A stretch of 64,000 nucleotides of DNA from Lutibacter citreus (GTDB lineage: Bacteria > Bacteroidota > Bacteroidia > Flavobacteriales > Flavobacteriaceae). Below, piece by piece: positions 15,946-60,909 of this stretch; within the stretch, counting starts at the first letter, position 1, and each line of letters starts with the position of its first letter. The notes under the pieces are model-generated. The model was given only the letters and a program-made list of their open reading frames with translations, ran no database searches and was not told the DNA's origin. The DNA is taken from the NCBI RefSeq assembly GCF_003260195.1, contig NZ_QEIH01000005.1:434001-498000 (forward strand). Direction: 5' to 3'. The position numbers and the translations under genes are program-made.

Positions 15946-17325
15946 CTATTCAACAATTACACTTTTAATTATCCAATCTGCATTTGTTTTACTAGGTACA
16001 GGTTGAATAGCTAATTGATGAAGATGTTTTTTTCGTGTTTTAAATTGTGATAAAGGAATGATAATTTCTTGCCATTCATCAGTAACTTCAACTTTAGAAG
16101 AAACCCATTCTTCGGAGCTCCAATCAACTTTCTGAGGTGCAACACGTGTAAAGCGGGTTGGATCATCGTATCCGTTTAAGGCTAATTTAATAGAATTAGT
16201 TCCACTTATATTTTTAGTAACAATTTTTACCTGATTACATAAATAAATTGGAGTATGAATAAATGGTGTTGTAGCAATAATAGCTCCTTTAGACTCTGAT
16301 TTACCATAAATATAAACAGGTTCTTCATTTCGTATTAGGTCAGTTCCTTTTTCACTTCTCCAACCTTGTGTAGTATATTTAAAGTTATATGTACGCCCAG
16401 GTAAAGGGTATTCAAAATTATTTTCAGGAATATAAACTGTATTATCATTGTTAAAATATAGAGGTCTTATTTGTACACCACGATAAAAGGCATTGGTTTC
16501 GTGATTTTCCTGAATGCTATACCATTGATCTTTCCAAACAAACGCACTACCATGACCACCATCTATATAATCACCTTTAAATGTGTAAGGTCCTTTTAAG
16601 TTCTTAGACATAGAATATTTATTACCCCAAAATAGATAATACCATTCACCACGCTTAAAAATTGCAGGTTTATCTCCAGTTGGTTTTCTGGAGCCATCAT
16701 CATTTAGCACCATTAGTTTTTGTGGTTTATCTGCTAAGGAAACCATATCATCTCCCAGTGTGGCAATGTAATATTGTCCAGCACCAAAAATGATATTATA
16801 TACTCCGTTTTCTTCGTAAACTTCTGGGTCGTAAGACTTTGTAGGGGTAAGGGAATCAGGTAAAAGAGGTTTTCCTAAAGCATCTTTCCAAGGTCCATTC
16901 ATTGTAGGAGCTTCCATAACCCCAGTATTAAAGTTACGATTTGAAAAGTACCAGTAATATTTACCATCTTTAGTAGCAAGGTCGCCTGCCCAACAATTGT
17001 CTTGATTTCCAATATAGGTTTGAGTTGGTAAAATATTTAGTTTGTGATCCCAATCTGTAAGGTTGTTAGAAGCCCAAAGTTCCCAATGATCCATTCTACA
17101 AAAATCAACAATATTCCAATCACGATCGTGTCCACACATAGCGTATATACTATCACCTACAATAATAACATGTGGATCAGCAAGTCCTCGGTCCGGAGCA
17201 ATAGAGTTAACTGAAATAGCACTTGGGTTGTAACCAGGAATCTTATTTTCAGCTGTTTTTTCTTTAGTGCTACAGGCGTAAAATAAAATGATTGATAAAC
17301 TCAAGGTTATTAAAGAATGTTTCAT
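15946..17325 (-). CDS. GH43-like beta-propeller lipoprotein
   Basis: A 459-residue protein. The start MKHSLITLSLS gives a lipoprotein signal with Cys18 (LFYACS); the frame is open 19 codons further up but that part is not signal-like. Residues about 50-320 look like a five-blade propeller of glycoside hydrolase family 43: GLADPHVIIVGDSIYAM (putative base Asp), a YDPEVYEENGVYNI strand and several WYY/YYW repeats. The last 130 residues form a CBM-like beta-sandwich. Family 43 enzymes act on arabinose, xylose or galactose linkages. The substrate is not clear here and no other saccharide gene touches it apart from an SMP-30 gene upstream. Confidence 0.75.
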   Translation of the reverse strand: MKHSLITLSLSIILFYACSTKEKTAENKIPGYNPSAISVNSIAPDRGLADPHVIIVGDSIYAMCGHDRDWNIVDFCRMDHWELWASNNLTDWDHKLNILPTQTYIGNQDNCWAGDLATKDGKYYWYFSNRNFNTGVMEAPTMNGPWKDALGKPLLPDSLTPTKSYDPEVYEENGVYNIIFGAGQYYIATLGDDMVSLADKPQKLMVLNDDGSRKPTGDKPAIFKRGEWYYLFWGNKYSMSKNLKGPYTFKGDYIDGGHGSAFVWKDQWYSIQENHETNAFYRGVQIRPLYFNNDNTVYIPENNFEYPLPGRTYNFKYTTQGWRSEKGTDLIRNEEPVYIYGKSESKGAIIATTPFIHTPIYLCNQVKIVTKNISGTNSIKLALNGYDDPTRFTRVAPQKVDWSSEEWVSSKVEVTDEWQEIIIPLSQFKTRKKHLHQLAIQPVPSKTNADWIIKSVIVE

Positions 17326-17633
17326 ATAAATTGTTTTATAAGTTAGATAAAATATACTAACTATTTTGCGTATGGTTTTCAATGATTTTTAAACTACTAA
17401 TTTAGCAAATAAAACATTTGTAGATACTTAAATTTAGCGAAAATATTTATCGAAAAAAATTACATTAGCAAGATAACTGAACTTTAAAATTAAAAACTAA
17501 TGAGTAACCATTTGTTAATAACGGATTGATTTTAACATATGATGAAATATTTTTGAAGGAAAAGGAAAGCTTTGGAATACTGAAAACCTTCAATGGAATT
17601 GTTGTTGTAGACGGCAGGTTTTTAGAAATGTTT
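17326..17633. other. Intergenic region with a possible coding remnant
   Basis: 308 bp between two same-strand genes. It must contain the promoter of the GH43-like gene, but no clear TAnnTTTG was seen. On the plus strand a 44-codon open stretch without a start codon (17508 to stop at 17640-17642) is less AT-rich than its surroundings and could be a decayed gene end. This is weak. Confidence 0.35.
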
Positions 17634-27279: not shown

Positions 27280-27281
27280 TG

Positions 27282-27354
27282 AGCGAGAGACCGGGCTCGA
27301 ACCGGCGACAGTCAGCTTGGAAGGCTGAAGCTCTACCAACTGAGCTACTCTCGC
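27282..27354 (-). tRNA. tRNA-Gly (anticodon TCC), copy 1
   Basis: A 73-nt cloverleaf: acceptor stem GCGAGAG/CTCTCGC, D-arm AGCTCAGTTGGTAGAGCT, anticodon stem TCAGC/GCTGA with loop CTTCCAA, and T-loop TTCGAGC. No CCA is encoded. It is identical to copy 2. Confidence 0.97.
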
Positions 27355-27674: not shown

Positions 27675-27676
27675 TG

Positions 27677-27749
27677 AGCGAGAGACCGGGCTCGAACCGG
27701 CGACAGTCAGCTTGGAAGGCTGAAGCTCTACCAACTGAGCTACTCTCGC
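27677..27749 (-). tRNA. tRNA-Gly (anticodon TCC), copy 2
   Basis: A 73-nt sequence with the same bases and fold as copy 1 (27282-27354). It lies upstream of copy 1 on the minus strand, with its own promoter and terminator. Confidence 0.97.
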
Positions 27750-41556: not shown

Positions 41557-43965
41557 ATGCTAAAAAAGATACTTTTAATAATAACGGTTATATTATTTTC
41601 TACAACCGTATTTTCTCAAAAAAGTGTAGCCATTTCTGGAACTGTAATAGAAAAAAACACTCAAAATTCAATCCCGTTTGCAAGTGTGGTTCTTAAAACA
41701 AAATTAGAAAATGTTTTTGTAACAGGTACAGCAACTAATGAAAACGGACTTTTTATTTTAGAAAACACAAAACCGGGAAACTATATTTTAGAAATATCTA
41801 GTGTGGGTTTTATTACCCACAAACAGCCACTTTTTGTAGGTAGTTTGTCTAATTTTTTGGGTATAAAAACCATTGAACTTAATGATGATGTAGCGAGTTT
41901 AAAAGAGGTGGTTATAAATACAAAGCAAGAAGAAGTAAGTGTAAAAATGGATAAAAAAACGTATTCATTAAGAGATAATATCAATCAAAGTGGAGGTTCA
42001 GTTTTACAAGCCATGCAAAATTTACCAAGTGTAACGGTACAAGATGGTAAAGTTAAATTACGAGGTAATGATAAAGTAGTTGTACTTATAGATGGTAAAC
42101 AAACAGCACTTACGGGTTTTGGGAATCAATCTGGTTTAGATAATATTCCGTCTTCTGCAATTGATAGAATTGAAGTAATTAATAATCCATCTTCTAAATA
42201 TGATGCCAACGGAAATGGTGGTATTATTAATATAATTTACAAAAAGAATAAAACGCAAGGTTTTAATGGGAAGGTTGGTTTTACAGGAGGTTTGGGTGCT
42301 TTATGGGAACGAAAAGAAAACCTACCAACTATAAGACCTCAATACACGGCAACACCAAAATTAAATCCATCGTTGTCTTTAAATTATAGAAAAGATAAAA
42401 TAAATGTCTTTTTTCAAGGAGATTATTTATACACCGAAACCTTAAATAAAAATGAGTTTGTAACTAGAACTTATAATGACGGAACTGTTATAAAACAACA
42501 ATCTAAACGAAATAGAGATACAAAATTTACAACACTAAAATCTGGAATAGATTGGAATTTAGACGAGAAAAACACTATTAATATTTCAGGATTGTATGGT
42601 ACTGAAGTTATTATAGATAATGGAGATCAACCTTTTTTTAATGAAGATTTAAGTGAACGTTTACGTCTTTGGAAATTTTTGGAAGACGAAGTAAAAATAA
42701 CAGCGATGGCAACGGCTAGTTATTTGCATAAATTTAAAGAAGCTGGACATAATATTACTTTTGGCTTTAATTATACATTTCATAGAGAAGATGAAAAGTA
42801 CTTTTTTGATAATATTTTACCTAACGAGCCAGTTAGCGAAAACTCATTTAAATTACTTTCAGATGAACAGGTTTATGATTTTAATATTGATTATGTGAAA
42901 CCATTAACCTACGGAAAACTTGAAACAGGTGTAAAACTTAGAAAAAGAAATATTCCTATTAATATGCAATTCTTTCCGGGAACAAACACACCGTTAGATA
43001 TAGATGCAGGTGGTGAAGCAGAATATAAAGAAATTATACCAGCAATTTATGGGAATTATATTTTTGAAAATGAAAAATATGAAGCTGAAATTGGTTTACG
43101 TGTAGAATATGTGAATTTAGATTATTATGTAAATCCTGACCACAACACATACAAAAGCGGAGGTTATGATTATTTTGAACCTTTTCCAAATGTTAGATTA
43201 GCCAAAAAGATTGATGAAAATAATAAAATTTCTATTTTTTATAACAGACGTGTTGATAGACCAAACGAAGTTGATATTCGTATCTTTCCAAAATATGATG
43301 ATGCAGAAATTATTAAGGTTGGGAACCCAAATTTACGTCCGCAATTTACTAATTTATTAGAGCTAGGTTACAAAAATAGTTGGGATTCGGGGAGTTTATA
43401 TTCCGCTATTTATCACCGTTTTGCAGATGGTACTATTACAAGGATTTCTAGTACGGTTGGTAACGATCCTTTAATTTATGCTATTTTTCAAAATGCGGGT
43501 AAAAGTTATAACAGTGGTGTTGAGATGGTTTATGAGCAAGAAGTATCAGATATCTATTCCTTCAACTTAAATGTCAATGCTTATAGGAATAAAATAGATG
43601 CTTTTTCTGTAGTGAATTTATATCCTAGTGAAAATACTTTTTCAGCAGATGAACAAAAAATAACTTCAGGAACTATAAAATTAAATAATACATTTCATTT
43701 TATTAAAAAGTTTGATGCGCAACTTACTGCAAGTTATTTAGCGCCAGATATTATTCCGCAAGGTAAGCGGGAATCTATGTTTTCTTTAGATTTAGGTCTT
43801 AAAAAGTTAATTCAAAAAGGTAAAGGAGAATTGTTTTTTAACGCTACAGACTTATTAAATACTATGGTTGTTAAAAAAACAATTGAAGGAGAAACGTTTA
43901 ATTATACAAGTAATAATTATAATGAAACACAAGTAATTCGATTAGGTTATACTTATAAGTTTTAA
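41557..43965 (+). CDS. TonB-dependent receptor-like outer-membrane protein
   Basis: An 802-residue protein with a signal peptide (to about residue 21). A carboxypeptidase-regulatory-like beta domain (about 25-105) is followed by a plug (about 125-230, GGSVLQAMQNLPSVTVQDG, SSKYDANGNGGIINIIYKK) and a 22-strand-type barrel that ends in LGYTYKF. It is shorter than SusC and has no SusD next to it. It belongs to the outer_membrane_beta-barrel_3 group. Its cargo is unknown; control by the upstream two-component system is inferred from the 11-bp repeats. Confidence 0.9.
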   Translation: MLKKILLIITVILFSTTVFSQKSVAISGTVIEKNTQNSIPFASVVLKTKLENVFVTGTATNENGLFILENTKPGNYILEISSVGFITHKQPLFVGSLSNFLGIKTIELNDDVASLKEVVINTKQEEVSVKMDKKTYSLRDNINQSGGSVLQAMQNLPSVTVQDGKVKLRGNDKVVVLIDGKQTALTGFGNQSGLDNIPSSAIDRIEVINNPSSKYDANGNGGIINIIYKKNKTQGFNGKVGFTGGLGALWERKENLPTIRPQYTATPKLNPSLSLNYRKDKINVFFQGDYLYTETLNKNEFVTRTYNDGTVIKQQSKRNRDTKFTTLKSGIDWNLDEKNTINISGLYGTEVIIDNGDQPFFNEDLSERLRLWKFLEDEVKITAMATASYLHKFKEAGHNITFGFNYTFHREDEKYFFDNILPNEPVSENSFKLLSDEQVYDFNIDYVKPLTYGKLETGVKLRKRNIPINMQFFPGTNTPLDIDAGGEAEYKEIIPAIYGNYIFENEKYEAEIGLRVEYVNLDYYVNPDHNTYKSGGYDYFEPFPNVRLAKKIDENNKISIFYNRRVDRPNEVDIRIFPKYDDAEIIKVGNPNLRPQFTNLLELGYKNSWDSGSLYSAIYHRFADGTITRISSTVGNDPLIYAIFQNAGKSYNSGVEMVYEQEVSDIYSFNLNVNAYRNKIDAFSVVNLYPSENTFSADEQKITSGTIKLNNTFHFIKKFDAQLTASYLAPDIIPQGKRESMFSLDLGLKKLIQKGKGELFFNATDLLNTMVVKKTIEGETFNYTSNNYNETQVIRLGYTYKF

Positions 43966-49047: not shown

Positions 49048-50655
49048 TTATAGTGTTGCCATAAATTTTGAAAGATTTATAGAGTTATCTAAATTCATTT
49101 TTTTTCGTAGACGATACCTCGCAGTATTTACACTTTCCATTGATATACCTAAAAGTTGAGATATTTCTTTACTTGAAAAGTTTAGTTTTATTAAGGCGCA
49201 TAATTTATGATCTCTCTGTGTTAGCTCAGGATATTGTTCAGATAATGTTTTATAAAACACTTTGTTTGTAGATGTAAACCGAGCATTAAACTCAGTCCAA
49301 TCCTGAGTTTTATTAATTCTTATTTTGGTTAAAATTTGATTGATTATTTTGTTTTCAGAACTTTTTAACTGAATTAAATTATCTTTTATGTTAAGTATTA
49401 ATTCATCTTTTTGAATTAATTGGAGGGCAGAAGTAGTTAGTTCCTTGTTTTTAAAGTTTAATAATTCTTCATTTTTTTCCTTATTTAGTTTTTGTTTGTT
49501 TTTAAAAAAAAGTTGCTCAGATTTTCTTCTTTTGTACAAGCCCCATATAATTATTCCTGATATTATTAATAAAGAAATAAATGAAATAGTTAGTAACATA
49601 TTTCTTAAAAAAAGATTTTCTTGTTTTTGTTTTAATTCGTTAATTTTAGTTGCATTTAAAACCTTTTTTTGTTCTTCTCGTTCAATTCTGTAGGTATCTT
49701 TTATTTCAAGAATACCACTGTTTTTTTTACTTCTAGCGCCAAAAAGTTCATCATTTAAAATCTTTGAAATTTTAAGGTTTTTATAAGCCAAGTCCATTTT
49801 ATTCATTTTAATCTGTACGTCTCCTAATTTTTCATATACATTAGGCACGTAGTTTTGATGACTTTTAAATTTGTCTGAAATTTTGAGCGATTTTAAGTAA
49901 CTTTTTTCGCTGTTAATGTAATCACTTTTCTTAAAATAAATATCTCCTAAAAATGAATAAAAAATTACTAGATATGTGGGGTTTTTATTTATAAACTGTC
50001 CTTCAAGACTGAGTAGAATTTCCAGAGCTTGGTCATTTTTGCCAAGATGATGTAATATATATGCTTGTTCTGCATCTTTAAAATGGAAATTACCAGATCC
50101 ATATTCTTGTTGTCTAATAATTGTACAGCTATCCAAATATTTTTGAGCTATACCATAATTTCCATTCTCCCTATTATGACTTGCTAATAGATGATAAGTA
50201 TTACTCAGCGCTTCGTATTGTTTTTTAGAAGTAATTGGATGTTTTTTTTGAAGTGATAATGATAGATTAAAATACTTTTCTGCTTTCAAGTTTTTTCTGA
50301 ATACACTGTAAAGCATACCTAACTCCGTATAAATGCGATGAGCATATGTATTGTCTTCAATATTATTAGAATAAATTAAAGCCTCCCAGTAACCGTCATA
50401 CGATTTAGAGTAGCTACCCGTATTGGCAAGCGCTCGTGATATTTCAATAATTGAACTTATAGCCTTTAAAGTATCACCATTCTTTAGATATTTTAGTTTT
50501 TCTAGTTGAAGTTTTGATATTGAACTGTCAGAGTATTTTAAAATAAATTGCTTGGGAATTTCTTTTTTGTAAGTGCTATTTTTAATGTTTTGAGCATTAA
50601 CACTAGTAAAGTAAACGGCAAATAGGATAGTCAATAATAAAAGGTATTGTTTCAT
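49048..50655 (-). CDS. TPR-LuxR membrane regulator of the galactan operon
   Basis: A 535-residue protein with a signal peptide, about six TPRs (residues 60-300), a membrane helix (about 350-370), a coiled coil and a C-terminal LuxR/GerE-type HTH (about 470-530, LTQRDHKLCALIKLNFSSKEISQLLGIS). Such proteins are common one-piece regulators in Bacteroidota glycan loci. It is divergent from the GH50 operon across 274 bp that hold several repeat motifs, so control of that operon is likely. The signal is unknown. Confidence 0.85.
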   Translation of the reverse strand: MKQYLLLLTILFAVYFTSVNAQNIKNSTYKKEIPKQFILKYSDSSISKLQLEKLKYLKNGDTLKAISSIIEISRALANTGSYSKSYDGYWEALIYSNNIEDNTYAHRIYTELGMLYSVFRKNLKAEKYFNLSLSLQKKHPITSKKQYEALSNTYHLLASHNRENGNYGIAQKYLDSCTIIRQQEYGSGNFHFKDAEQAYILHHLGKNDQALEILLSLEGQFINKNPTYLVIFYSFLGDIYFKKSDYINSEKSYLKSLKISDKFKSHQNYVPNVYEKLGDVQIKMNKMDLAYKNLKISKILNDELFGARSKKNSGILEIKDTYRIEREEQKKVLNATKINELKQKQENLFLRNMLLTISFISLLIISGIIIWGLYKRRKSEQLFFKNKQKLNKEKNEELLNFKNKELTTSALQLIQKDELILNIKDNLIQLKSSENKIINQILTKIRINKTQDWTEFNARFTSTNKVFYKTLSEQYPELTQRDHKLCALIKLNFSSKEISQLLGISMESVNTARYRLRKKMNLDNSINLSKFMATL

Positions 50656-50757: not shown

Positions 50758-50812
50758 ATATAGCTTTGTCTATATGTAATCTATAGGTTTTACTTGAATG
50801 TCTATATTATAG
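50758..50812. promoter_or_regulatory. Cluster of CTATA/TATAG palindromes
   Basis: ATATAG-CTTTGT-CTATAT (50758-50775), CTATAG (50781-50786) and CTATATTATAG (50802-50812) lie in the spacer between the TPR-LuxR regulator and the GH50 gene. GerE-type HTH proteins bind such dyads. Candidate operator. Confidence 0.4.
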
Positions 50813-50929: not shown

Positions 50930-53248
50930 ATGAATTATAGCTTGAGAATTATTTTAATTACTAGCCTTTTATTAATTGGGTTAGTAACTAAAGCTCAAAA
51001 CAATGAATCAATCTGGGATGGTCAAAAACAGTTGGTAGTAACTGATTTTGAAAAATCAAATTCATTGTCAATTATTCAAGAAATTTCTTCAGAAGTACAA
51101 ATAATAACAAAGAGAGGAGTTACTAAAGGTAAAAAAGCTTTGAAAATTAATTTTAAAGAGGACATTGAATTTTCTGGAATTGAGATTAAACCAAGAAAAC
51201 CTTGGGACAACAAAAATCTTGATAATTATTGTTTAGTTTTTGAAGTTACCAATCTTTCAGATATTTCGGTACATTTAAGAGCAAGTGTTAATAATGTTAA
51301 AGGTGTTGGGTTTTCACGAGGAACTTCAATTGCTGCAGGAATAACAAAAACTTGTTTTTTTGAAATAAAAGGTGAAAATGTTGGTATAGATAGAGGTTTA
51401 AGAGATGATCCTTCACCTTGGGTTACTGAAGATAATCGAATGATTATTCAAGGAGGGAAAAGTTCTGGAGATTTCAGTGTAATTTCAAAATTAAGAATTT
51501 CTGTAAAAAATCAAGATAACCCTAAAACTGTTGTTATAGATAATATTCGTTTTGTTAAGAATCCAGAATATAATGCAAATTACTATAAAGGAATTGTAGA
51601 TAAATTTGGGCAAAATAATAAAGTTGATTTTGCAATAAAAGTTCATTCAGATAAAGAATTGAAAGAAATTGCAGAAAAGGAATTACGTGAGTTAGCAGTT
51701 TCAAAGCCTATGGCAGACCGTAGTTTATTTGGAGGTTGGAAAAACGGACCAAAATTGAAAGGAACTGGATATTTTAGAACAGAAAAAGTGGGTGATAAAT
51801 GGGCAATGGTAGATCCTGAGGGTTATCTTTATTTTTCTACGGGGATCGCAAATGCGCGTATGGCAAATTCAACAACTTTCACCGGAATTGATTATAAAGA
51901 TGAATCTATAAAATATCGTGACCCTGAAGATTTAACTCCCGAAGATTCAAAAAATTTGGTAACGTTGTCTAAAGAGGTAACCAATACCGCTTTTAGAGCT
52001 TATCCTAAGCGTGCTGATATGTTTGAAGGTCTTCCAACATATGATGATCCTTTGGCAAATCATTACAGTTATAGAAGAGAATCACATAAAGGACCAGTGC
52101 CAAATGGAGAAACATATAGTTTTTATCAAGCAAATTTAGAACGCCGTTATGGAGAAAGATATCCGGGTTCTTACATTGTAAAATGGAAAGATGTTACCAT
52201 AGATCGTATGTTGGATTGGGGATTTACTTCCTTCGGAAATTGGGCAGCGGAAGATTTTTTTCAAAATAAACGAATTCCATATTACGCGAATGGTTGGATT
52301 ATTGGTGATTTTAAAACAATGAGTTCTGGTTATTGGGGACCAATGCCAGATCCTTTTGATCCTGAATTTAAGCGTAGAGCTAAACAATCTATTGATGTAG
52401 TTGCAGATCAAGTTAAAAATGATCCTTGGTGTGTGGGGATTTTTATAGATAATGAAAAAGCTTGGGGAAATATTAAATCAACACAATTAAGATTTCACAT
52501 TGTAATAGATGCTTTAAAGCATAATGCTTCAGCGTTACCAATGAAACGTGAAATTGTAAAAATGTTGAAGAATAAATACAACAGTGTAAATGAAATTTCT
52601 AAAGCTTGGAATGTGAAAATTGCATCTTGGGAATCTTTTTCAGAAGGAGTTGAAGTAGATAAATCAAAAAAGTTCAGTAAAGGACTTAAAGATGATTTAG
52701 CTGATATGACTGTTATGTATGCAGATAAATATTTTAGTATTGTTAATACAGCATTAAAAGAAGTATTACCAAACCATATGTATATGGGGGTTCGTTTTAC
52801 AAAATGGGGAATGACACCAGAAGTTCGTAAGGCAGCAGTTAAATACATTGATGTGTTTAGTATTAATTATTATGAAGAAACCATAGGTGAAAAAAACTGG
52901 GAGTTTTTGAAAGAGTTGGATATGCCTGCTATTATTGGAGAATATCATATTGGCGCTTTAGATTCTGGATATTTTAATCCAGGAATTATTCACGCTTCAA
53001 ATCAAGTTGATCGAGCAAGAATGTACAAACGTTATACGGAAAGTGTTATAGATAACCCATATTTTGTTGGAGTTCATTGGTTTCAATATACCGATTCACC
53101 TATTACAGGTCGCGCTCACGATGGTGAAAATTACAATATAGGTTTTGTTTCTTCAACAGATATACCATATCCTGAAATGGTAAAAGCGGCAAAGGAAGTT
53201 CACAAGAACTTATACCAAAGAAGATTCGGGAATTTAAAAAAAGATTAG
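50930..53248 (+). CDS. GH50 beta-agarase-like exo-hydrolase
   Basis: A 772-residue protein with a signal peptide (cleaved near KAQ, residue 23). A CBM-like beta-sandwich (about 30-210) is followed by a GH50 TIM barrel (about 255-765) with family patterns YFSTGIANARM, WGFTSFGNW and WFQYTDSPITGR. The likely acid/base is E509 (GIFIDNEKAWG) and the nucleophile E671 (IIGEYHIGALDSG). GH50 enzymes release neoagarobiose from agar ends or act as beta-galactosidases. It is the first gene of a six-gene operon, 18 bp before the PhoD-like gene. Agar or porphyran as substrate is inferred from the family. Confidence 0.9.
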   Translation: MNYSLRIILITSLLLIGLVTKAQNNESIWDGQKQLVVTDFEKSNSLSIIQEISSEVQIITKRGVTKGKKALKINFKEDIEFSGIEIKPRKPWDNKNLDNYCLVFEVTNLSDISVHLRASVNNVKGVGFSRGTSIAAGITKTCFFEIKGENVGIDRGLRDDPSPWVTEDNRMIIQGGKSSGDFSVISKLRISVKNQDNPKTVVIDNIRFVKNPEYNANYYKGIVDKFGQNNKVDFAIKVHSDKELKEIAEKELRELAVSKPMADRSLFGGWKNGPKLKGTGYFRTEKVGDKWAMVDPEGYLYFSTGIANARMANSTTFTGIDYKDESIKYRDPEDLTPEDSKNLVTLSKEVTNTAFRAYPKRADMFEGLPTYDDPLANHYSYRRESHKGPVPNGETYSFYQANLERRYGERYPGSYIVKWKDVTIDRMLDWGFTSFGNWAAEDFFQNKRIPYYANGWIIGDFKTMSSGYWGPMPDPFDPEFKRRAKQSIDVVADQVKNDPWCVGIFIDNEKAWGNIKSTQLRFHIVIDALKHNASALPMKREIVKMLKNKYNSVNEISKAWNVKIASWESFSEGVEVDKSKKFSKGLKDDLADMTVMYADKYFSIVNTALKEVLPNHMYMGVRFTKWGMTPEVRKAAVKYIDVFSINYYEETIGEKNWEFLKELDMPAIIGEYHIGALDSGYFNPGIIHASNQVDRARMYKRYTESVIDNPYFVGVHWFQYTDSPITGRAHDGENYNIGFVSSTDIPYPEMVKAAKEVHKNLYQRRFGNLKKD

Positions 53249-53266
53249 TTTACAAATTTATAGAAT

Positions 53267-55105
53267 ATGAAAACATTTAGTATGAGATTAATATGCGTTA
53301 TAATTGGCGTTATTTTTTTTCAAACTGTTTCAGCACAAAGAGAAGAAATTCTGAAACTACCAGAAAATATTAAGCCTAAAGATAGAATTGCATTTGCGTT
53401 ATATACTGTTCATGAAAACACAGTAAAAATTACTGCACAGTTTTATCCAATTCATAATATGGAGCCTTTTGAGGCAATATTAGAGATAAAAGAGAATGGA
53501 AAATGGATGGTTAAAAAAACTTCAGATATTCTTTATCCCGGTTATACAGCTCATTTTAGAATAGATAATTGGGATGATACTAAAGATCAACAATATAGAG
53601 TTGTTCATAACCGGAAGGCGTTTTTTGATGGGATTATTAAAAAAAATCCAAAGAATAAAGAAAACTTTGTAATGGCATCATTTTCTTGTATGTCCATTTA
53701 CCCAAAACACGGAGGACAAGAATCTACAGATGATATTGTTGAAAATTTGAAAAAATTAAATCCAGATTTACTATTTTTTGCAGGTGATCAAGTGTATGAT
53801 CATAGTCAACATTATTTGTATTGGTTAGAATTTGGTAGAAGATTTCGTGATGTAATGAGAAATACACCAACTATAACAATTCCAGATGATCACGATATAG
53901 GTCAAGCAAATATTTGGGGAGCAGGAGGGAAAAAGGCTACTGCACGTAATGGAATGTCTGGAGGTTATTATATGCCTGTTGCTTATGTGAATGAAGTACA
54001 ACGTGCACAAACTTGGCATTTACCTGATGCTTATGATCCAACACCTATAGAACGTGGAATTACTGTTTATTATACAGATTTAAAATGGGGAGGTATGAGT
54101 TTTGCTATTTTAGAAGATCGCAAGTTTAAATCAGGTTTAGAAGGCGTTATAGAGCAAGTTGGACCCCAGTTAGATGCTGTTTTAATTCCAGGAGTAGACC
54201 CAAAACAATTTGATGTAGAGGGAGCAACACTTTTAGGTGAACGACAATTAAAGTTTTTGGAAGATTGGACAACTGACTGGAAGGATGCTAGTATGAAATC
54301 TGTTTTGTCACAAACCATTTTTACGTATGCAAGTACGTATTCTGGAGTTTACGGTAAACAAGTTTATGCAGATTTTGATACAAATGGTTGGCCTCAAACA
54401 GGAAGAAATAAAGCATTAGCGGTTATTAGAAAAAGTTTTTCTACTATGGTAGCTGGTGATCAACATTTAGGTTCTGTTATTCGTCATGGTATTGATGATT
54501 GGGGTGATGCTGGTTATTCTTTTGCTACACCTGCAGTTGCAAGTTATTGGGTGCGTTGGTGGGAGCCAAAGCAACCAGCCATAAAATCGATAAAAGGGAA
54601 ACCTAGTTATTGTGGAGATTATTTAGATGGTTTTGATAACAAAATTACAATGTTAGCAGCTGCCAATCCAATATCAGCAGATAAAAGCAGTAAAACTGAA
54701 TTGTTGAATTCACGTGGAGCAGGTTGGGGTATTGTACGTTATAATAAAAAAGAACGTACTACTACTTTTGAATGTTGGGAACGTAATGTGGATGTTACAG
54801 CACCAGATAGTAAACCATATGAGGGCTGGCCTATTACAGTTAATCAATTAGATAATTTCAATATAAAAAAGGGATATCAACTACCTAAATTAACTATTTC
54901 AAAAGAAAACCAAGTAGTTACTATTCGTAAGAGCAGTGATAGAGCAGTGATTTCATCTATTAGAATTAAGGGAATATCTATTCAACCTAAAGTACTTACA
55001 GAAGGAAACTACACTGTTGAAATTGGTGAAGGAGATAATAAGCAGTTATTTTACAATGTTAAGGCTCTAAAAAAGAATAAAAATAAATTGGCAGTTAGCC
55101 TATAA
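53267..55105 (+). CDS. Secreted PhoD-like metallophosphatase
   Basis: A 612-residue protein with a signal peptide (to about SAQ, residue 24). It has the PhoD metallophosphatase pattern: SFSCMS, FFAGDQVYDH, IPDDHDIGQ and AGDQHLGSVIRHG, which hold the metal ligands. The C-terminal 120 residues form a beta domain. PhoD enzymes cleave phosphodiesters, but those in glycan loci may act on other esters, including sulfate; that is inference. It sits between GH50 and the isomerase-like gene in the operon. Confidence 0.85.
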   Translation: MKTFSMRLICVIIGVIFFQTVSAQREEILKLPENIKPKDRIAFALYTVHENTVKITAQFYPIHNMEPFEAILEIKENGKWMVKKTSDILYPGYTAHFRIDNWDDTKDQQYRVVHNRKAFFDGIIKKNPKNKENFVMASFSCMSIYPKHGGQESTDDIVENLKKLNPDLLFFAGDQVYDHSQHYLYWLEFGRRFRDVMRNTPTITIPDDHDIGQANIWGAGGKKATARNGMSGGYYMPVAYVNEVQRAQTWHLPDAYDPTPIERGITVYYTDLKWGGMSFAILEDRKFKSGLEGVIEQVGPQLDAVLIPGVDPKQFDVEGATLLGERQLKFLEDWTTDWKDASMKSVLSQTIFTYASTYSGVYGKQVYADFDTNGWPQTGRNKALAVIRKSFSTMVAGDQHLGSVIRHGIDDWGDAGYSFATPAVASYWVRWWEPKQPAIKSIKGKPSYCGDYLDGFDNKITMLAAANPISADKSSKTELLNSRGAGWGIVRYNKKERTTTFECWERNVDVTAPDSKPYEGWPITVNQLDNFNIKKGYQLPKLTISKENQVVTIRKSSDRAVISSIRIKGISIQPKVLTEGNYTVEIGEGDNKQLFYNVKALKKNKNKLAVSL

Positions 55106-55121
55106 AATATATCATATTAAT

Positions 55122-55955
55122 ATGAAAAAAACACTTTTAATAGTTTTATTAGTCTCTCAATTTGTATCAAATGCACAATTGAAGAACGGAGCGGAAAAAC
55201 TTGGGTGGACTCTTTCAGTTCATACGGTCAGTTTTTCAGAAAAAAACACCATTGAAAAATCACTCGATAGTATTAAAGCTATTGGGCTAACTCAAGTTGA
55301 TACTTATCGCGGTAATCAGTATGTGGGAGGTGACATTGACACCCTTCATTACTGGTTGGATAAGAAAAAACTGGATAAAGTGAAAATGCTTTTTAAAGAT
55401 AAAGGTGTTGAGTTAAATCATTTTGGTGTTATTCAAGGTGAAGACGAAAAAGAATGGCGTGAGATATTTGAGTTTGCAAAATATATGGGTGTTAAAATGC
55501 TGATTAGCGAACCTCAATACGAGCACTTAAAACTAGTGGATAAACTGTCGCAAGAATATGGCATACCGGTAGGTATTCACAATCATCCAGCACCAACAAA
55601 GTATTGGCATCCTAACACATTTATGACCTATGCAAAAAACCTAAAACTCAGCAAAAACATAGGAATATATCCTGATATTAACAATTGGGTTTATTCGGGT
55701 TTAAACCCAGTTGAAATGTTGAAGTTATGTGAAGGTCGGATTATTGGAATTCAGATTAAAGACCATATTGATGGAATTGGAATGGTGCAATGGGGAACGG
55801 GAACGGTAAATGTTCCGGGAATTTTTCACGAGCTGAAACGTCAAAATTTTAAAGGTAATATCTCTTTTGAGTATTTTGGAGATTTCAGCAAGGTAGATTA
55901 CATATCAAAATCAATTGATTACCTCAATTTTTTCAGTAAACAATTCAATAAGTAA
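55122..55955 (+). CDS. Secreted sugar isomerase/epimerase-like TIM-barrel protein
   Basis: A 277-residue protein of the xylose isomerase-like/AP endonuclease 2 superfamily with a signal peptide (MKKTLLIVLLVSQFVSNAQ). Metal-site candidates are E and H residues in LISEPQYEHL, GIHNHPAP and the ends IGIQIKDHIDG and ISFEYFGDF. Family enzymes isomerise or epimerise free sugars, usually inside the cell; export here means a periplasmic task on a sugar or keto-sugar. Parts of it look somewhat richer in GC than the neighbours. Gaps of 16 and 13 bp join it to the operon. Confidence 0.82.
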   Translation: MKKTLLIVLLVSQFVSNAQLKNGAEKLGWTLSVHTVSFSEKNTIEKSLDSIKAIGLTQVDTYRGNQYVGGDIDTLHYWLDKKKLDKVKMLFKDKGVELNHFGVIQGEDEKEWREIFEFAKYMGVKMLISEPQYEHLKLVDKLSQEYGIPVGIHNHPAPTKYWHPNTFMTYAKNLKLSKNIGIYPDINNWVYSGLNPVEMLKLCEGRIIGIQIKDHIDGIGMVQWGTGTVNVPGIFHELKRQNFKGNISFEYFGDFSKVDYISKSIDYLNFFSKQFNK

Positions 55956-55968
55956 AATATATTTAGAT

Positions 55969-57846
55969 ATGAAAAAAACACTAGGTTTAATTTTGACACT
56001 TTGTTGCTTTCAAATTATTCAAGCTCAAAAGAACCAAAAGTCTGTAGCGAGCAGCTTATCCAACCCAAATATTTTATGGATAATTACCGATGATCAAAGA
56101 GCTGATGCTCTAGAAGTATACAATAGAGAAACCATAGGTAAAAGTGAAAGTAGTTTAGGGTATGTAATGTCTCCTAATATTGATAAATTGGCTTCCGAAG
56201 GAACCTTATTTACAAATACGTATTGTAATTCCCCAATGTGTGCAATTTCAAGACCATCAATGCATATGGGGCGTCACGCCTTTCGTTCAGGACACTATAA
56301 GTTTTTTTCTCACCAAGAAGCTGATATTTCAAAACCATTTCTTTCTCAAATTTTAAGAAAAGAAGGTTATGGAACTGCTGTATTTGGTAAAACCCATTTT
56401 GCAACACAAAGTAAATTGAATCCTAAAGAGCGAAAACCAAATGATATGTTTGATTTGGTTGTTGAGTTTAAAAGAGATTTAAATAATAAAGGTTTTGGAA
56501 GTATTTTTACAAGTGGTGCAAAACAAATATTTATTGATGGTGTTTTTCAATTAGTTAACAAGCACGAAACAGCTACGTATCCTGATGGAACTAAATATGT
56601 CTATATGACAAATAATAGTGAAGGTGAAATTCCAAAGGAAGATAAAAAAATGTTTGACAAGGTGAATAAAGATTTTAATATTTTGCGTGCCAGAACACGT
56701 TTACATAATACCTTGATTATTGGAGGAGAAAATCCTAAAAAAGCTGGTGAAACAGTAGATGGTTATATAGTTAAAGAGTTCAAAAACCACCTTTCAAATG
56801 CTAATAAAAAATATAAAACATATGGAGGAAGAACTGTAAATGGAGTAGATACAACTAAACCAGCGTTTTTAAATTTGAGTTTTCATTTACCTCATACACC
56901 CGTTTTACCTCCTAAAAAGTTCCGTGATATTTTTAAAAATAAAAAGTATAAATTACCAGAATTTACTACAGATGAACTTTCAAAATTTCCTCCACAATTA
57001 GTAATACTTTATAACGAATGTAAAGCAGATAGATTAACAAATGAAGAAAAACAGCAGGCTATTAGAGATTATTATGCCTTTTGTGCATATGGAGATTCAT
57101 TAATTGGTGAGTCTGTAGAGGCTTTTAAAAAATATTGTAAAGAGAATAATCAGGAATATTTAATTCTATTCACTGTTGGAGATCACGGTTGGCATTTAGG
57201 TGAGCAAGGAGTAATGTCTAAATTTGGTCCTTGGAAACAGTCTGTGCACAATGCTACTATTGTAGTTTCTTCTAATAAAGATGAATTTCCGGCAGGAGAA
57301 GTGTGTGAAGAAATTACAGAATATGTAGATTTTGCACCAACTATGTTAGCTGCCGCAGGAGTAGATATTAACCAAAAAGAATATGATTATTTAGATGGTT
57401 ACGATTTAAATAAAGTACAAAAGGGTACAACTACACTTCGTGAATATGCGTTAGGAGAACAAAATATTGTGTGTGGGCATAGAGCATTTATGCGTAATGG
57501 TGTTTTTGCTTTTTCAATGCGTACACGAGATGAATGGGATTATTTTAAAGCACCAGATCTAAATAAAAACATTACGTGGGCATTAACTTGCGATCGTCCA
57601 AAAGCAGATATGGCTTTGTATGATTTAAGAGTAGATCCGCTTGAGAAAAATAATGTAGCTAATGATAAAGATTATGTAGCATTGGCAGATTGGTTTCGAA
57701 ACAAGTTAGGAACAATTGTTTTAGGAGATAGACGTGTAGAAGCAGATTGGACAAAACTAAACAGTTATAATGTTAGTAGTTTTGCTAGGGGAGCGGATGA
57801 TAAAAAATTAGATATTCCACAAGAAATTATTCCTAACGTAAAATAG
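55969..57846 (+). CDS. Secreted sulfatase with unusual CAISR motif
   Basis: A 625-residue protein. The start MKKTLGLILTLCC at 55969 gives a signal peptide; the frame is open for 18 more codons but these overlap the upstream gene. It is a formylglycine sulfatase of family S1: D41 and D42 (IITDDQRAD) for calcium, C91-A-I-S-R95, the later VGDHGWHLGEQG and K/H residues. The third motif position is Ile in place of Pro/Ala. It would need an anaerobic or FGE-type activating enzyme, which is not in this window. It likely removes sulfate from the algal galactan. Confidence 0.9.
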   Translation: MKKTLGLILTLCCFQIIQAQKNQKSVASSLSNPNILWIITDDQRADALEVYNRETIGKSESSLGYVMSPNIDKLASEGTLFTNTYCNSPMCAISRPSMHMGRHAFRSGHYKFFSHQEADISKPFLSQILRKEGYGTAVFGKTHFATQSKLNPKERKPNDMFDLVVEFKRDLNNKGFGSIFTSGAKQIFIDGVFQLVNKHETATYPDGTKYVYMTNNSEGEIPKEDKKMFDKVNKDFNILRARTRLHNTLIIGGENPKKAGETVDGYIVKEFKNHLSNANKKYKTYGGRTVNGVDTTKPAFLNLSFHLPHTPVLPPKKFRDIFKNKKYKLPEFTTDELSKFPPQLVILYNECKADRLTNEEKQQAIRDYYAFCAYGDSLIGESVEAFKKYCKENNQEYLILFTVGDHGWHLGEQGVMSKFGPWKQSVHNATIVVSSNKDEFPAGEVCEEITEYVDFAPTMLAAAGVDINQKEYDYLDGYDLNKVQKGTTTLREYALGEQNIVCGHRAFMRNGVFAFSMRTRDEWDYFKAPDLNKNITWALTCDRPKADMALYDLRVDPLEKNNVANDKDYVALADWFRNKLGTIVLGDRRVEADWTKLNSYNVSSFARGADDKKLDIPQEIIPNVK

Positions 57847-57855
57847 TAATATAAA

Positions 57856-58695
57856 ATGGCAAAAAAAATAATTGTAATCACAGGAGCATCGGGTGGAGTT
57901 GGAGGAATGTTAGCACTAGGTTTAGCTAAAAAAGGAAATCACATTGTTTGCTTAGGTCGTTCTAAAGAGAAATTGATTAAAATTTACAATAAAATTAATA
58001 GTGAATTAAAAGAATTTGGTGGAAGTGCCTCATATGATGTTGTTGATATGATGGACGATAATAATGTAATAGCTATAGGTGAAAAAATTAAAGAAGAATT
58101 TGGCAAGATAGATGTTTGGATAAATAATGTAGGTGTAAATAATCACAATGCCATTGGCCCAACATGGGAAATTGAACCGAAAAATTGGAGAACTGAAGTT
58201 AAATTAAATTTTTATACAGCCTTTATTGGTACTCATACAGCAATTAATTTGATGAAACAAAAAAATTATGGTTACATTATCAATTTAGGTGGTGGAGGAG
58301 TTCAGGAACCTAAACCGTATGGGTCGTCTTATGGTGCTGCGAAAACGGCTATTGTGAAATTTACAGAAACTGTGAATATTGAATTAGAAGAAGAAGGTTT
58401 GAATATTAAAGTTTTTTCATTCAATCCAGGTTTTATAAAAAATGATCGTACTGAAATGCTTGTTGAATCTGATGTAGCTAGAAAGTATATGCCAAAATTG
58501 GAGCAGATTTTAAAATATGGTAAAATGTCAGAAGCCCAAGATTCTATCGATTTGATTGACGCTTTAATTAGTGGTAGGGCAGATAATCTAGCAGGAAAAT
58601 ACTTTTTCTCGGATGATAAAAATATAGAGGATGCCATTAAAAATAGTAAAGATTTTATAAAACAAGAAAGAAATTTATTAAGAGTTAAGTTATAA
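57856..58695 (+). CDS. SDR oxidoreductase lacking the catalytic Ser
   Basis: A 279-residue cytosolic protein with a Rossmann fold: TGASGGVGG (10-18) for NAD(P), NNVG at 90-93, and Y159-x3-K163 (YGAAK). The usual Ser 13 residues before the Tyr is Gly146 in the run NLGGGGV. The enzyme may use another residue (S157 or S158 lie close to the Tyr) or have lost oxidoreductase activity. It is the only operon product with no export signal. Its substrate is unknown, perhaps a sugar or keto-sugar from this locus. Confidence 0.88.
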   Translation: MAKKIIVITGASGGVGGMLALGLAKKGNHIVCLGRSKEKLIKIYNKINSELKEFGGSASYDVVDMMDDNNVIAIGEKIKEEFGKIDVWINNVGVNNHNAIGPTWEIEPKNWRTEVKLNFYTAFIGTHTAINLMKQKNYGYIINLGGGGVQEPKPYGSSYGAAKTAIVKFTETVNIELEEEGLNIKVFSFNPGFIKNDRTEMLVESDVARKYMPKLEQILKYGKMSEAQDSIDLIDALISGRADNLAGKYFFSDDKNIEDAIKNSKDFIKQERNLLRVKL

Positions 58696-58710
58696 ATTAT
58701 TCAGAAGAAT

Positions 58711-59475
58711 ATGAGAGAAAAGAAAATAATTTATTTTTTGCTATTGACCTTTATAATGGTATTATTAACTTCCTGTATGTCCAGGGAACAAGAAGATTTA
58801 TCAGTGTTGGTAGTTCGTGGAGGACATCCATATGATACTCCAGAATTTGAGGAAATGTGTTTAAGCTTGGAAGGTATTAAGGCAGATCTAGTTCTTACTT
58901 CCCATATGGAAAGAATGAAGGCTGCTGAAATTAGTAAGAAGTATGATGCTATTTTATTTTTAAATCAAAATAAGCATTATACATCGTATGATTGGAATAG
59001 AAAACAATATATGGATCTGGCAAAACTAGGTGTTGGAATGGTATTTTTACATTTTACATTGTCGTCGCAACCAGAATGGGATGAATATCATAAATTAGTA
59101 GGAGGTAAGTGGTTTTTGAAGAATTATACAGAAGATAAAAGTTTACACTCTACTTATTTTACAGATCTTACACTTGATATTGAAGTAAAGGATGTAAATC
59201 ATCCAGTAACAAAAGGATTGAAAAATTTTAGAATGACAGATGCTTTTTATGGGAATATTTACATTGAACCAAACGTACATGCTTTGCTGGGTACAAATCA
59301 TGCTGGTATTTCAGAAACAATTGCTTGGACACACAAATATGACAATTCGAAGGTAGTTTATGTAATGCCTGGATATACAAAAAAAGCTTATAAAAATAAA
59401 CATTATAGAAGGTTGATTACCAACTCGTTAAATTATGTTGCAACAGGTGTATATCTTGAGCAAAAAGTGAACTGA
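58711..59475 (+). CDS. ThuA-like lipoprotein
   Basis: A 254-residue protein with a lipoprotein signal (LLTSC, Cys22). The rest is a ThuA-type flavodoxin-like domain: LVVRGGHPYDTPEFEEM, GMVFLHFTLSSQPEWDEYHKLVGGKW, HPVTKGLKNFRMTDAFYG and VVYVMPGYTKKAY. ThuA proteins take part in keto-disaccharide metabolism (trehalose in Rhizobium), and many Bacteroidota glycan loci hold one. It is the last gene of the six-gene operon (15-bp gap). Its exact reaction is not known. Confidence 0.85.
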   Translation: MREKKIIYFLLLTFIMVLLTSCMSREQEDLSVLVVRGGHPYDTPEFEEMCLSLEGIKADLVLTSHMERMKAAEISKKYDAILFLNQNKHYTSYDWNRKQYMDLAKLGVGMVFLHFTLSSQPEWDEYHKLVGGKWFLKNYTEDKSLHSTYFTDLTLDIEVKDVNHPVTKGLKNFRMTDAFYGNIYIEPNVHALLGTNHAGISETIAWTHKYDNSKVVYVMPGYTKKAYKNKHYRRLITNSLNYVATGVYLEQKVN

Positions 59476-59655
59476 TTTAATAATGTTTACCAGGGAAAAA
59501 TAATGTATTCATTCGTTTAAATTGAAACCAACTTTTGGTTAAAATTGTGCAGCTCTAATGTCAAAATTTAGATTTGCTTTTACAACTATAAAATCAGCTA
59601 ATTACAATTTTTTAAATGATTTGTTGAACGGCGTTTTTACTGATTTCAATTTTAT

Positions 59656-60909
59656 TTAGCTAAGAGCTATTGTTTCCCACTCTGGTATTGTTTCATTATT
59701 CAAAATGTTTATTAGTTCTTCAAAGGTTTGGGCTGATTCTTTAGTCTTATCAACATTAAAGTAAATAACCTTCTCTAAGTTGTCTTGCTCTCTTAAATTA
59801 GCTATCCATTTTTTAGCTTCCTGCGCATAAAATCTTAGGGCTTCAGTGGAAGTTGGAATCTCTGACGCTGCAAAAACTGATAATGGCAGGCCACCTCCAA
59901 TTACCCAGAGACGGTCATCCATATCATCTGAATCGGGTAAAATTTCAAAAGATAATACTACAAGGCTTTCAGAACTTCTTTTATCTAAGTATACATTCTT
60001 TATTTTATTAACCCAATGGGCTTTAAGTATAAAGGAAATTCCCGTCTCAATAGCGACTCTAAATTCGGGTGGTTGTATGTTGGGAATATTTTCGGGGCTT
60101 AATTGTACAAATACACTATCATTATTAGGAGGCATAAATAAGTGGTTGTTTTCTATTTCTTCAAAAATTTCTTTTGAAGCAGAGTTCATTTTCTTATTGG
60201 TTGAATTTGCAATAATCAAGTCCTTCCCTTCGTAAAAAATATCCCATCCCAACATTTGAAATAATTTACGATTTGGCAAAAATAAAGAAGCTATAATGCG
60301 ATCTATACTCTTATGATAAAATTCAAACGGTTCATCTAAATTATTATAATAATCCCAATTTTTTTTTAATATTGGAATATCAGATCTCTTTTGGAATTTA
60401 AGTAGCTGTTTTTTAATTTTTATTTGAGTTGGATACGTATCAAGCAGGCTCCAAGAATTATTAACAAGCTGTTTAAATTTTTTAGAATGCAATAGTTCCT
60501 CCTCCGGAAGCGTCAAGGTTTCTCCCATTTTAAATAGAAGTTCTTGTTTGGCATTGGCTTCCTTCCTTTTCTTGGCCTTCCTATTAAATATATCGTATAC
60601 CATTTTAAAATTATTACCTACACCAGTAATCGTGTCTTTGATTTCATTTAGTTCACTTATACCAGGAATTGATCCAAATACAAATTTTTCAAAAAAACCA
60701 CTTCTTGACGTTGTTTGATAAATAATAAGTCTCTTATTACTCAGTACAATCAAACCTTCGTTCTGATAAATATTTATATGTGCCGTTAACAACACTTTTT
60801 CAGTATCTGATTGCAAATACGTTTCTAATTCACCATTAATCAATTCAGGATGGATACATAAAAAAGGAAAGAAAGGATTGATATCTTTATTGTAATTTAT
60901 TAGAGACAT
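59656..60909 (-). CDS. Unknown protein with PH-like N-terminus
   Basis: A 417-residue cytosolic protein with no signal peptide or membrane helix. Residues about 35-70 (VLLTAHINIYQNEGLIVLSNKRLIIYQ) look like a bacterial PH-like domain. A Lys-rich helical stretch (110-200) and an alpha/beta C-terminal half follow, with no motif I recognise. It is not obviously part of the neighbouring operon, which points the other way. Function unknown. A tandem 11-bp repeat lies 65 bp before its start. Confidence 0.6.
   Translation of the reverse strand: MSLINYNKDINPFFPFLCIHPELINGELETYLQSDTEKVLLTAHINIYQNEGLIVLSNKRLIIYQTTSRSGFFEKFVFGSIPGISELNEIKDTITGVGNNFKMVYDIFNRKAKKRKEANAKQELLFKMGETLTLPEEELLHSKKFKQLVNNSWSLLDTYPTQIKIKKQLLKFQKRSDIPILKKNWDYYNNLDEPFEFYHKSIDRIIASLFLPNRKLFQMLGWDIFYEGKDLIIANSTNKKMNSASKEIFEEIENNHLFMPPNNDSVFVQLSPENIPNIQPPEFRVAIETGISFILKAHWVNKIKNVYLDKRSSESLVVLSFEILPDSDDMDDRLWVIGGGLPLSVFAASEIPTSTEALRFYAQEAKKWIANLREQDNLEKVIYFNVDKTKESAQTFEELINILNNETIPEWETIALS

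Follow-up and report, generated by a model that had tools for sequence, protein, structure and literature searches.

The window analysed here is a stretch of 64,000 nucleotides from the flavobacterium Lutibacter citreus (contig NZ_QEIH01000005.1, positions 434,001 to 498,000). At positions 50930-59475 it carries six closely packed + strand open reading frames (ORFs), which encode, in order, a glycoside hydrolase of family 50 (GH50), a PhoD-like protein, a TIM-barrel protein (hereafter TIM), a sulfatase, a short-chain dehydrogenase/reductase (SDR) and a ThuA-domain protein (Table 1). The ORF list and Pfam agree with the first-pass annotation on this content and on gaps of 9-18 bp (18, 16, 13, 9 and 15 bp in operon order), with matches to Agarase_CBM (E 3e-33), PhoD (8e-9), AP_endonuc_2 (3e-16), Sulfatase (2e-28), adh_short (2e-38) and ThuA (8e-22). 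Five products are predicted to be exported, as that annotation had also proposed. By eye and hydropathy window, rather than by a signal-peptide program, GH50, PhoD-like, TIM and sulfatase proteins have a hydrophobic leader and ThuA a lipobox (LLTSC), and the SDR has neither. It had further noted the lack of a SusC/SusD pair. Indeed, the operon contains no Plug domain and so departs from a SusCD polysaccharide utilisation locus (PUL), in which the two genes are adjacent; SusD was not searched for separately. Among 52 Plug-domain matches in the whole genome, the closest is an 802-aa TonB-type receptor (window 41557-43965) about 7 kb upstream, with other genes in between. No terminator-like site was found in 59400-59800.

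Table 1. Features of the operon and of its divergent regulator gene, in window coordinates
Feature	Position	Strand	Length	Predicted export signal	Basis
Divergent regulator gene, tetratricopeptide repeats (TPR) and C-terminal LuxR/GerE helix-turn-helix (HTH)	49048..50655	-	535 aa		Pfam TPR_12, GerE
TGTCTATAT first copy, candidate operator	50767..50775	+			Word comparison of regulator/GH50 gaps
TGTCTATAT second copy, 32 bp downstream of first	50799..50807	+			Same word and spacing in the C34 gap (sister operon)
GH50 exo-beta-agarase type	50930..53248	+	772 aa	Export leader	PDB 4bq2 match, Pfam PF17992
PhoD-like metallophosphoesterase	53267..55105	+	612 aa	Export leader	Pfam PF09423, structure model vs 2yeq
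Xylose isomerase-like TIM barrel (PF01261)	55122..55955	+	277 aa	Export leader	Pfam, PDB 3p6l alignment
S1-type sulfatase	55969..57846	+	625 aa	Export leader	Pfam PF00884, 8-sequence alignment
Short-chain dehydrogenase/reductase	57856..58695	+	279 aa	None	Pfam PF00106, sister copy
ThuA-domain lipoprotein	58711..59475	+	254 aa	Lipobox	Pfam PF06283, sister copy

A search of the same genome with the SDR and GH50 proteins located a sister operon on contig C34, where a regulator gene is followed by genes for GH50, ThuA, a sugar porter of the major facilitator superfamily (MFS), SDR and TIM. The shared proteins are 65% (GH50), 66% (ThuA), 75% (SDR) and 74% (TIM) identical to those of the window. Gene order differs between the two operons, the 528-aa MFS porter has no counterpart among the window operon genes, and neither PhoD nor a window-type sulfatase was found in the sister operon. 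Since only four genes and the regulator are common to both, we regard GH50, ThuA, SDR and TIM as the core, and PhoD and the sulfatase as add-ons. That four of the six genes occur again next to a homologue of the divergent regulator gene indicates that their grouping is more than chance. The C34 regulator homologue (L052:12918-14521) is split by a frameshift between its TPR and HTH parts, and the two pieces, in frames 1 and 3, are 49% and 61% identical to the window regulator. Consequently, the window regulator may serve both operons; alternatively, the split may be an assembly error.

The two regulator/GH50 gaps, 274 and 318 bp long, each contain the word TGTCTATAT twice, 32 bp apart. When the 5.1-Mb genome was searched for TGTCTATAT-N23-TGTCTATAT with up to two mismatches, the only two matches were perfect and coincided with these gaps; a reversed control gave none. 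Among 2000 dinucleotide-preserving shuffles of the gaps, 5 produced any 9-mer repeated at equal spacing in both. Taken singly, the word carries less weight: the window holds three matches where 0.78 are expected, a count reached by 4 of 100 shuffles. Five other genomes were searched overall at the same tolerance, and the tandem pair was not found in one of these, G370.

The window GH50 aligns with PDB entry 4bq2 nearly end to end (residues 37-768, E 6e-237), and its E509 (DNEK) and E671 (GEYH) line up with glutamates of that structure. We take the family number to be GH50, these residues to be the catalytic GH-A glutamates, and 4bq2, which the entry itself calls B-AGARASE, to be Aga50D. If Aga50D is a guide, the window enzyme would presumably be an exo-agarase releasing neoagarobiose. 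For the PhoD-like protein, a structure model (pLDDT 81) gave Bacillus subtilis PhoD (2yeq) as its top Foldseek match (E 9e-18). In a second structural comparison 2yeq (Z 23.2, root-mean-square deviation (rmsd) 4.1, 413 residues) scored below purple acid phosphatases (Z 26.5, rmsd 3.2, 374 residues). Taken together, the two comparisons make a metallophosphoesterase fold well supported for the modelled protein. The fold is common to B. subtilis PhoD over those 413 residues, but identity is 14%, and the window type, unlike PhoD, occurs directly behind GH50 in several stretches (see below). C141, D174, Y177 and H400 are invariant in 16 of 16 sequences, and we presume, without residue-by-residue alignment, that they are the PhoD metal ligands.

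The operon is not the only agar-related locus in this genome. On contig C1, a homologue of the regulator (C1:63196-64695) adjoins genes for a Zn-dehydrogenase, a KduD-type SDR, an aldehyde dehydrogenase and an MR_MLE enzyme, and the same cluster encodes an aldose epimerase, a RhaT-type transporter, GH2 and GH117 (3p2n match, E 4e-207). A second C1 cluster holds an MFS porter, a divergent GH50-type gene and a GH2 that is 81% identical to the Pfam-confirmed GH2 of a stretch from another flavobacterium (L018); Plug-domain open frames of 1007 and 1032 aa lie 10-19 kb from it. Because this contig carries a cluster of the published type for agar and 3,6-anhydro-L-galactose (L-AHG), the window operon would be accessory to an agar system. 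That it might instead substitute for an absent L-AHG route is ruled out by the GH117, aldehyde dehydrogenase and MR_MLE enzyme on C1. Further, cutting and import of longer chains could take place at other loci, so that no SusCD pair would be needed beside the operon. Two other regions considered as GH117 genes, window 15949-17325 and L053:6173-7558, both matched GH43-type structures instead; the protein of the former (window 15946-17382) has a Pfam GH43 match and, by eye, a lipobox-like start.

A flavobacterial agar locus with GH117 and an L-AHG pathway is PUL-a of Aquimarina sp. ERC-38 (PMC10163077). PUL-a has an agar-type target and shares with C1 the GH117, GH2, Zn-dehydrogenase-type, KduD-type and AHG-dehydrogenase genes; it also contains SusD/TonB transporters and GH16/GH86 (PMC10163077). 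The window operon, by contrast, lacks an adjacent SusC gene and carries in addition ThuA, an exported TIM and a different SDR.

In other genomes, it is the GH50-PhoD pair, rather than the whole operon, that recurs. In 6 of the 18 longer stretches that carry PhoD, GH50 lies directly upstream of it. These six come from the window, two Croceitalea bins, Tenacibaculum M341, and genomes G072 and G087 (stretches L017, L018, L024, L038 and L039 outside the window). In this count M341 and G072 may be one organism, further stretches may be duplicates between collections, L019 is included with a PhoD that has no upstream gene on its contig, and short PhoD loci in G379 and G306, with second copies in G391, G373 and G133, were left unextended. 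Judged by gene order, GH50 and PhoD form a pair in their own right in other flavobacteria. On contig C4 of G072, the pair, an MFS porter, GH117 and L-AHG genes occupy neighbouring stretches and a TPR-LuxR gene is present. On contig C69 of G087, as read outside 116.9-136 kb, GH50-PhoD and GH117/L-AHG genes are about 30 kb apart, and genes for an MFS porter and a TPR-LuxR protein are again present. Relative to C1, identities in these two genomes are 79% for GH117, 85-88% for the aldehyde dehydrogenase and 82-90% for MR_MLE; for the KduD-type gene the value is 81% in G072 and only 35% in G087. The labels GH117, dehydrogenase, MR_MLE, GH2 and MFS were confirmed in G072, G087 and stretch L083. The longest open frame in the four G072/G087 stretches is 826 aa, shorter than SusC. 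Thus the agar-type version of the galactan link made in the first-pass annotation stands, through a GH50 of the 4bq2 agarase type, the recurrence of GH50-PhoD pairs in other flavobacteria, the location of two pairs on GH117/L-AHG contigs and the presence of regulators of this type beside those clusters.

The idea that the six genes are conserved as a unit held only in part. Neither the six-gene set nor the four-gene core was found in other genomes, within the stretches read; the core and the regulator are duplicated within the genome. Family tallies include the L. citreus genome and were made among the matches listed, with up to three candidates scored per genome for PhoD and sulfatase and up to six for ThuA and SDR in the order sample; GH50 and TIM were compared in the L. 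citreus genome and the stretches read. PhoD homologues (E<=1e-60) occur in 12 of 395 order genomes, sulfatase homologues at 1e-60 in 4 of 395, and SDR homologues at 1e-50 in 2 of 38 genus genomes. G370 and G373 each have homologues of PhoD as well as of the sulfatase, located on separate contigs or at a distance of about 640 kb. The sulfatase query gave 183 first-look candidates in the L. citreus genome itself (G000), the highest number among the matches listed. ThuA relatives at 1e-12 were detected in 6 of 365 phylum genomes, L. citreus included, and none of GH50, TIM or PhoD was found beside them in the other five, for all of which the stretches were read. The relative in one of these, G599 (L070:4937-10338), sits beside KduI, SDR and Ldh_2 genes, upstream of exported proteins that, by eye, seem related to pectin.

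The remaining proteins offer mixed clues to function. PF01261 metal-dependent sugar isomerases have a Glu/Asp/His/Glu metal set; the window TIM keeps the Glu and Asp positions and has Gln (QIKD) where 3p6l has His (HFKD), a Gln that the sister copy shares. The structure prediction for TIM has a mean pLDDT of 52. Sulfatases of the S1 formylglycine type carry a maturation motif CxPxR or CxAxR. The window sulfatase, its start taken as the ATG within a longer TTG ORF, has C91-A-I-S-R (near 56239) and conforms to neither. All 7 aligned homologues have C[AG]PSR; the DDQR, PHTP and GDHGW motifs of the window protein line up with theirs. Since the maturation motif departs from the homologues, both maturation and activity are uncertain, and maturation, judged on sequence, is doubtful. 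The 'sulfated' target proposed at first pass loses force accordingly, as it depends on a single sulfatase, altered in this motif (CAISR) and without a counterpart in the sister operon. The SDR has TGASGG and YGAAK motifs, begins directly with the former, and is predicted to be cytoplasmic. ThuA profile matches to 4e5v and 4jqs are weak. Both operons encode TIM and ThuA with export leaders and an SDR without one. To our knowledge, most ThuA proteins and exported PF01261 proteins have no assigned reaction.

Keto-sugar pathways provide partial parallels. The rhizobial ThuA/ThuB trehalose system works with 3-keto sugars, and ThuB is a Gfo/Idh/MocA dehydrogenase. As in the window, a ThuA domain there adjoins a sugar oxidoreductase; in the window, however, ThuA is a lipoprotein partnered by an SDR. 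In the levoglucosan pathway (LgdA, LgdB1, LgdB2, LgdC), a dehydrogenase likewise works with PF01261 proteins, but its dehydrogenases are Gfo/Idh/MocA proteins, and the pathway as described includes no GH50, ThuA or SDR (PMC7676230, PMC10066097). LgdB1, a PF01261 enzyme, opens the anhydro ring of 3-keto-levoglucosan by beta-elimination; Mn left LgdB1 unchanged and enhanced LgdB2 (PMC7676230). Of the features typical of 3-keto-glycoside and levoglucosan-type systems, both L. citreus operons have the PF01261 partner and an SDR, and the Gfo/Idh/MocA dehydrogenase is absent from both. By analogy, LgdB1 may be a lead to the function of the window TIM rather than a sign of membership.

We suggest, with moderate confidence, that the six genes form an accessory operon for agar oligosaccharides, probably co-regulated with the sister operon in the same genome. 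This reading draws on the gene content, a core that occurs twice with a divergent regulator gene, a tandem TGTCTATAT pair absent elsewhere, and the agar/L-AHG cluster on C1. The TPR-LuxR regulator would likely bind the tandem TGTCTATAT and turn on both operons upon the appearance of agar fragments. The exported GH50 would likely then trim neoagaro-oligosaccharides to neoagarobiose outside the cytoplasm, and the sulfatase and PhoD-like enzyme could plausibly remove ester substituents. As to the chemistry of ThuA, TIM and SDR, we infer that the exported TIM and ThuA might isomerise a sugar in keto or anhydro form, or subject it to elimination or hydration, and that the cytoplasmic SDR might perform a closing redox step. 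Between these events, the product could plausibly be taken up through the MFS sugar porter that the sister operon encodes.

Several observations weigh against an accessory agar operon of this kind. The stricter tallies found ThuA (E<=1e-30) in 1 of 395 genomes and SDR (E<=1e-45) in 1 of 386, in each case L. citreus itself. As no other genome read showed the four-gene core, its co-occurrence comes from two paralogous operons and not from independent lineages. The candidate operator is subject to similar caution: the motif was chosen from the two gaps, so that its presence there is by construction and its absence elsewhere is the informative part, and a 13-bp word shared by the gaps was, taken alone, reached in 99 of 2000 shuffles. 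At up to two mismatches, G431 and G133 gave no match to the tandem pair; G072 and G087 gave one 2-mismatch match each, as did the reversed control in G370. The regulator query returned 13 match rows in the L. citreus genome at E<=1e-15, itself and the two C34 pieces included, so this type of regulator need not be agar-specific. Finally, exported TIM and ThuA together with a cytoplasmic SDR would not make a compartmentally simple single pathway.

A plainer explanation is that only GH50, with the sulfatase and PhoD, matters for agar, and that SDR, TIM and ThuA are unrelated passengers in a duplicated block. The published-type L-AHG route already present on C1 would suit such a satellite role, as would the breadth of the three families and an SDR homologue in G431 (74-75% identity) that has no GH50, TIM or ThuA homologues within the 20 kb examined. 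However, GH50, ThuA, SDR and TIM have been kept in both operons despite changed order and differing PhoD, sulfatase and MFS genes, and the 65-75% identity of the shared proteins would argue for selection on the set. We see passengers as possible but rather unlikely. A different target, such as another red-algal galactan or a sulfated, methylated or phosphorylated side group to which GH50 is tuned, would fit the restriction of the sulfatase and PhoD-like genes to the window copy. It would also fit several PhoD homologues, one in the L. citreus genome, that follow a sulfatase, a SASA-type esterase, GH16 or a beta-helix protein and not GH50. The near end-to-end alignment of GH50 with agarase 4bq2 and a sulfatase motif unlike that of homologues, with activity uncertain, speak against this target, which we consider unlikely.

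The first-pass annotation had envisaged a periplasmic route that modifies sulfated agar pieces by oxidation and isomerisation; as a self-contained route, this would mean that pieces are oxidised outside the cytoplasm and then isomerised by TIM and ThuA. PF01261 enzymes do act after a 3-dehydrogenase in levoglucosan breakdown (PMC7676230, PMC10066097), and the export leaders of TIM and ThuA in both copies are consistent with such a route. The Lgd dehydrogenases, however, are Gfo/Idh/MocA proteins and not SDRs (PMC10066097). The sole oxidoreductase, the SDR, is leaderless in both copies and predicted to be cytoplasmic, and neither operon encodes an exported dehydrogenase, the rest of the genome not having been searched. 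Periplasmic oxidation is thus unsupported, and the proposed route appears improbable. A related possibility, to which we give still less credence, is that the core provides an additional way of handling the anhydro half of agar, parallel to the aldehyde dehydrogenase/cycloisomerase route of C1. Here keto neoagarobiose or keto anhydrogalactose would be opened or cleaved via beta-elimination by the exported PF01261 protein and ThuA, the MFS porter would import the product, and the SDR would reduce it.

If the genes are indeed an accessory agar-oligosaccharide operon, a core kept twice, a likely pool of neoagaro-oligosaccharides and a candidate operator would provide a small, testable setting for the roles of ThuA and exported PF01261 proteins. 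The GH50-PhoD pair raises a question of its own, namely why, in several genera, an agarase gene is followed by one for a protein of phosphoesterase fold. Among the papers listed in searches of open-access literature, none dealt with this gene set.

The base composition of the operon was compared with that of its surroundings. GC content is 0.323 in the operon and 0.336 in the C34 operon. The corresponding value is 0.281 for the window as a whole, and it lies at 0.305-0.319 in seven L. citreus stretches, one of which (L052) holds the C34 operon. GC at third codon positions (GC3) ranges from 0.17 to 0.30 among the operon genes, against a mean of 0.19 (sd 0.04) for 100 ORFs from eight L. citreus stretches, operon genes included. 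In this check for foreign origin, the TIM gene, with a GC3 of 0.30, is the only composition outlier in the operon. Elsewhere in the window, two tRNA-Gly (TCC) genes lie on the - strand at 27281-27354 and 27676-27749, about 320 bp apart.

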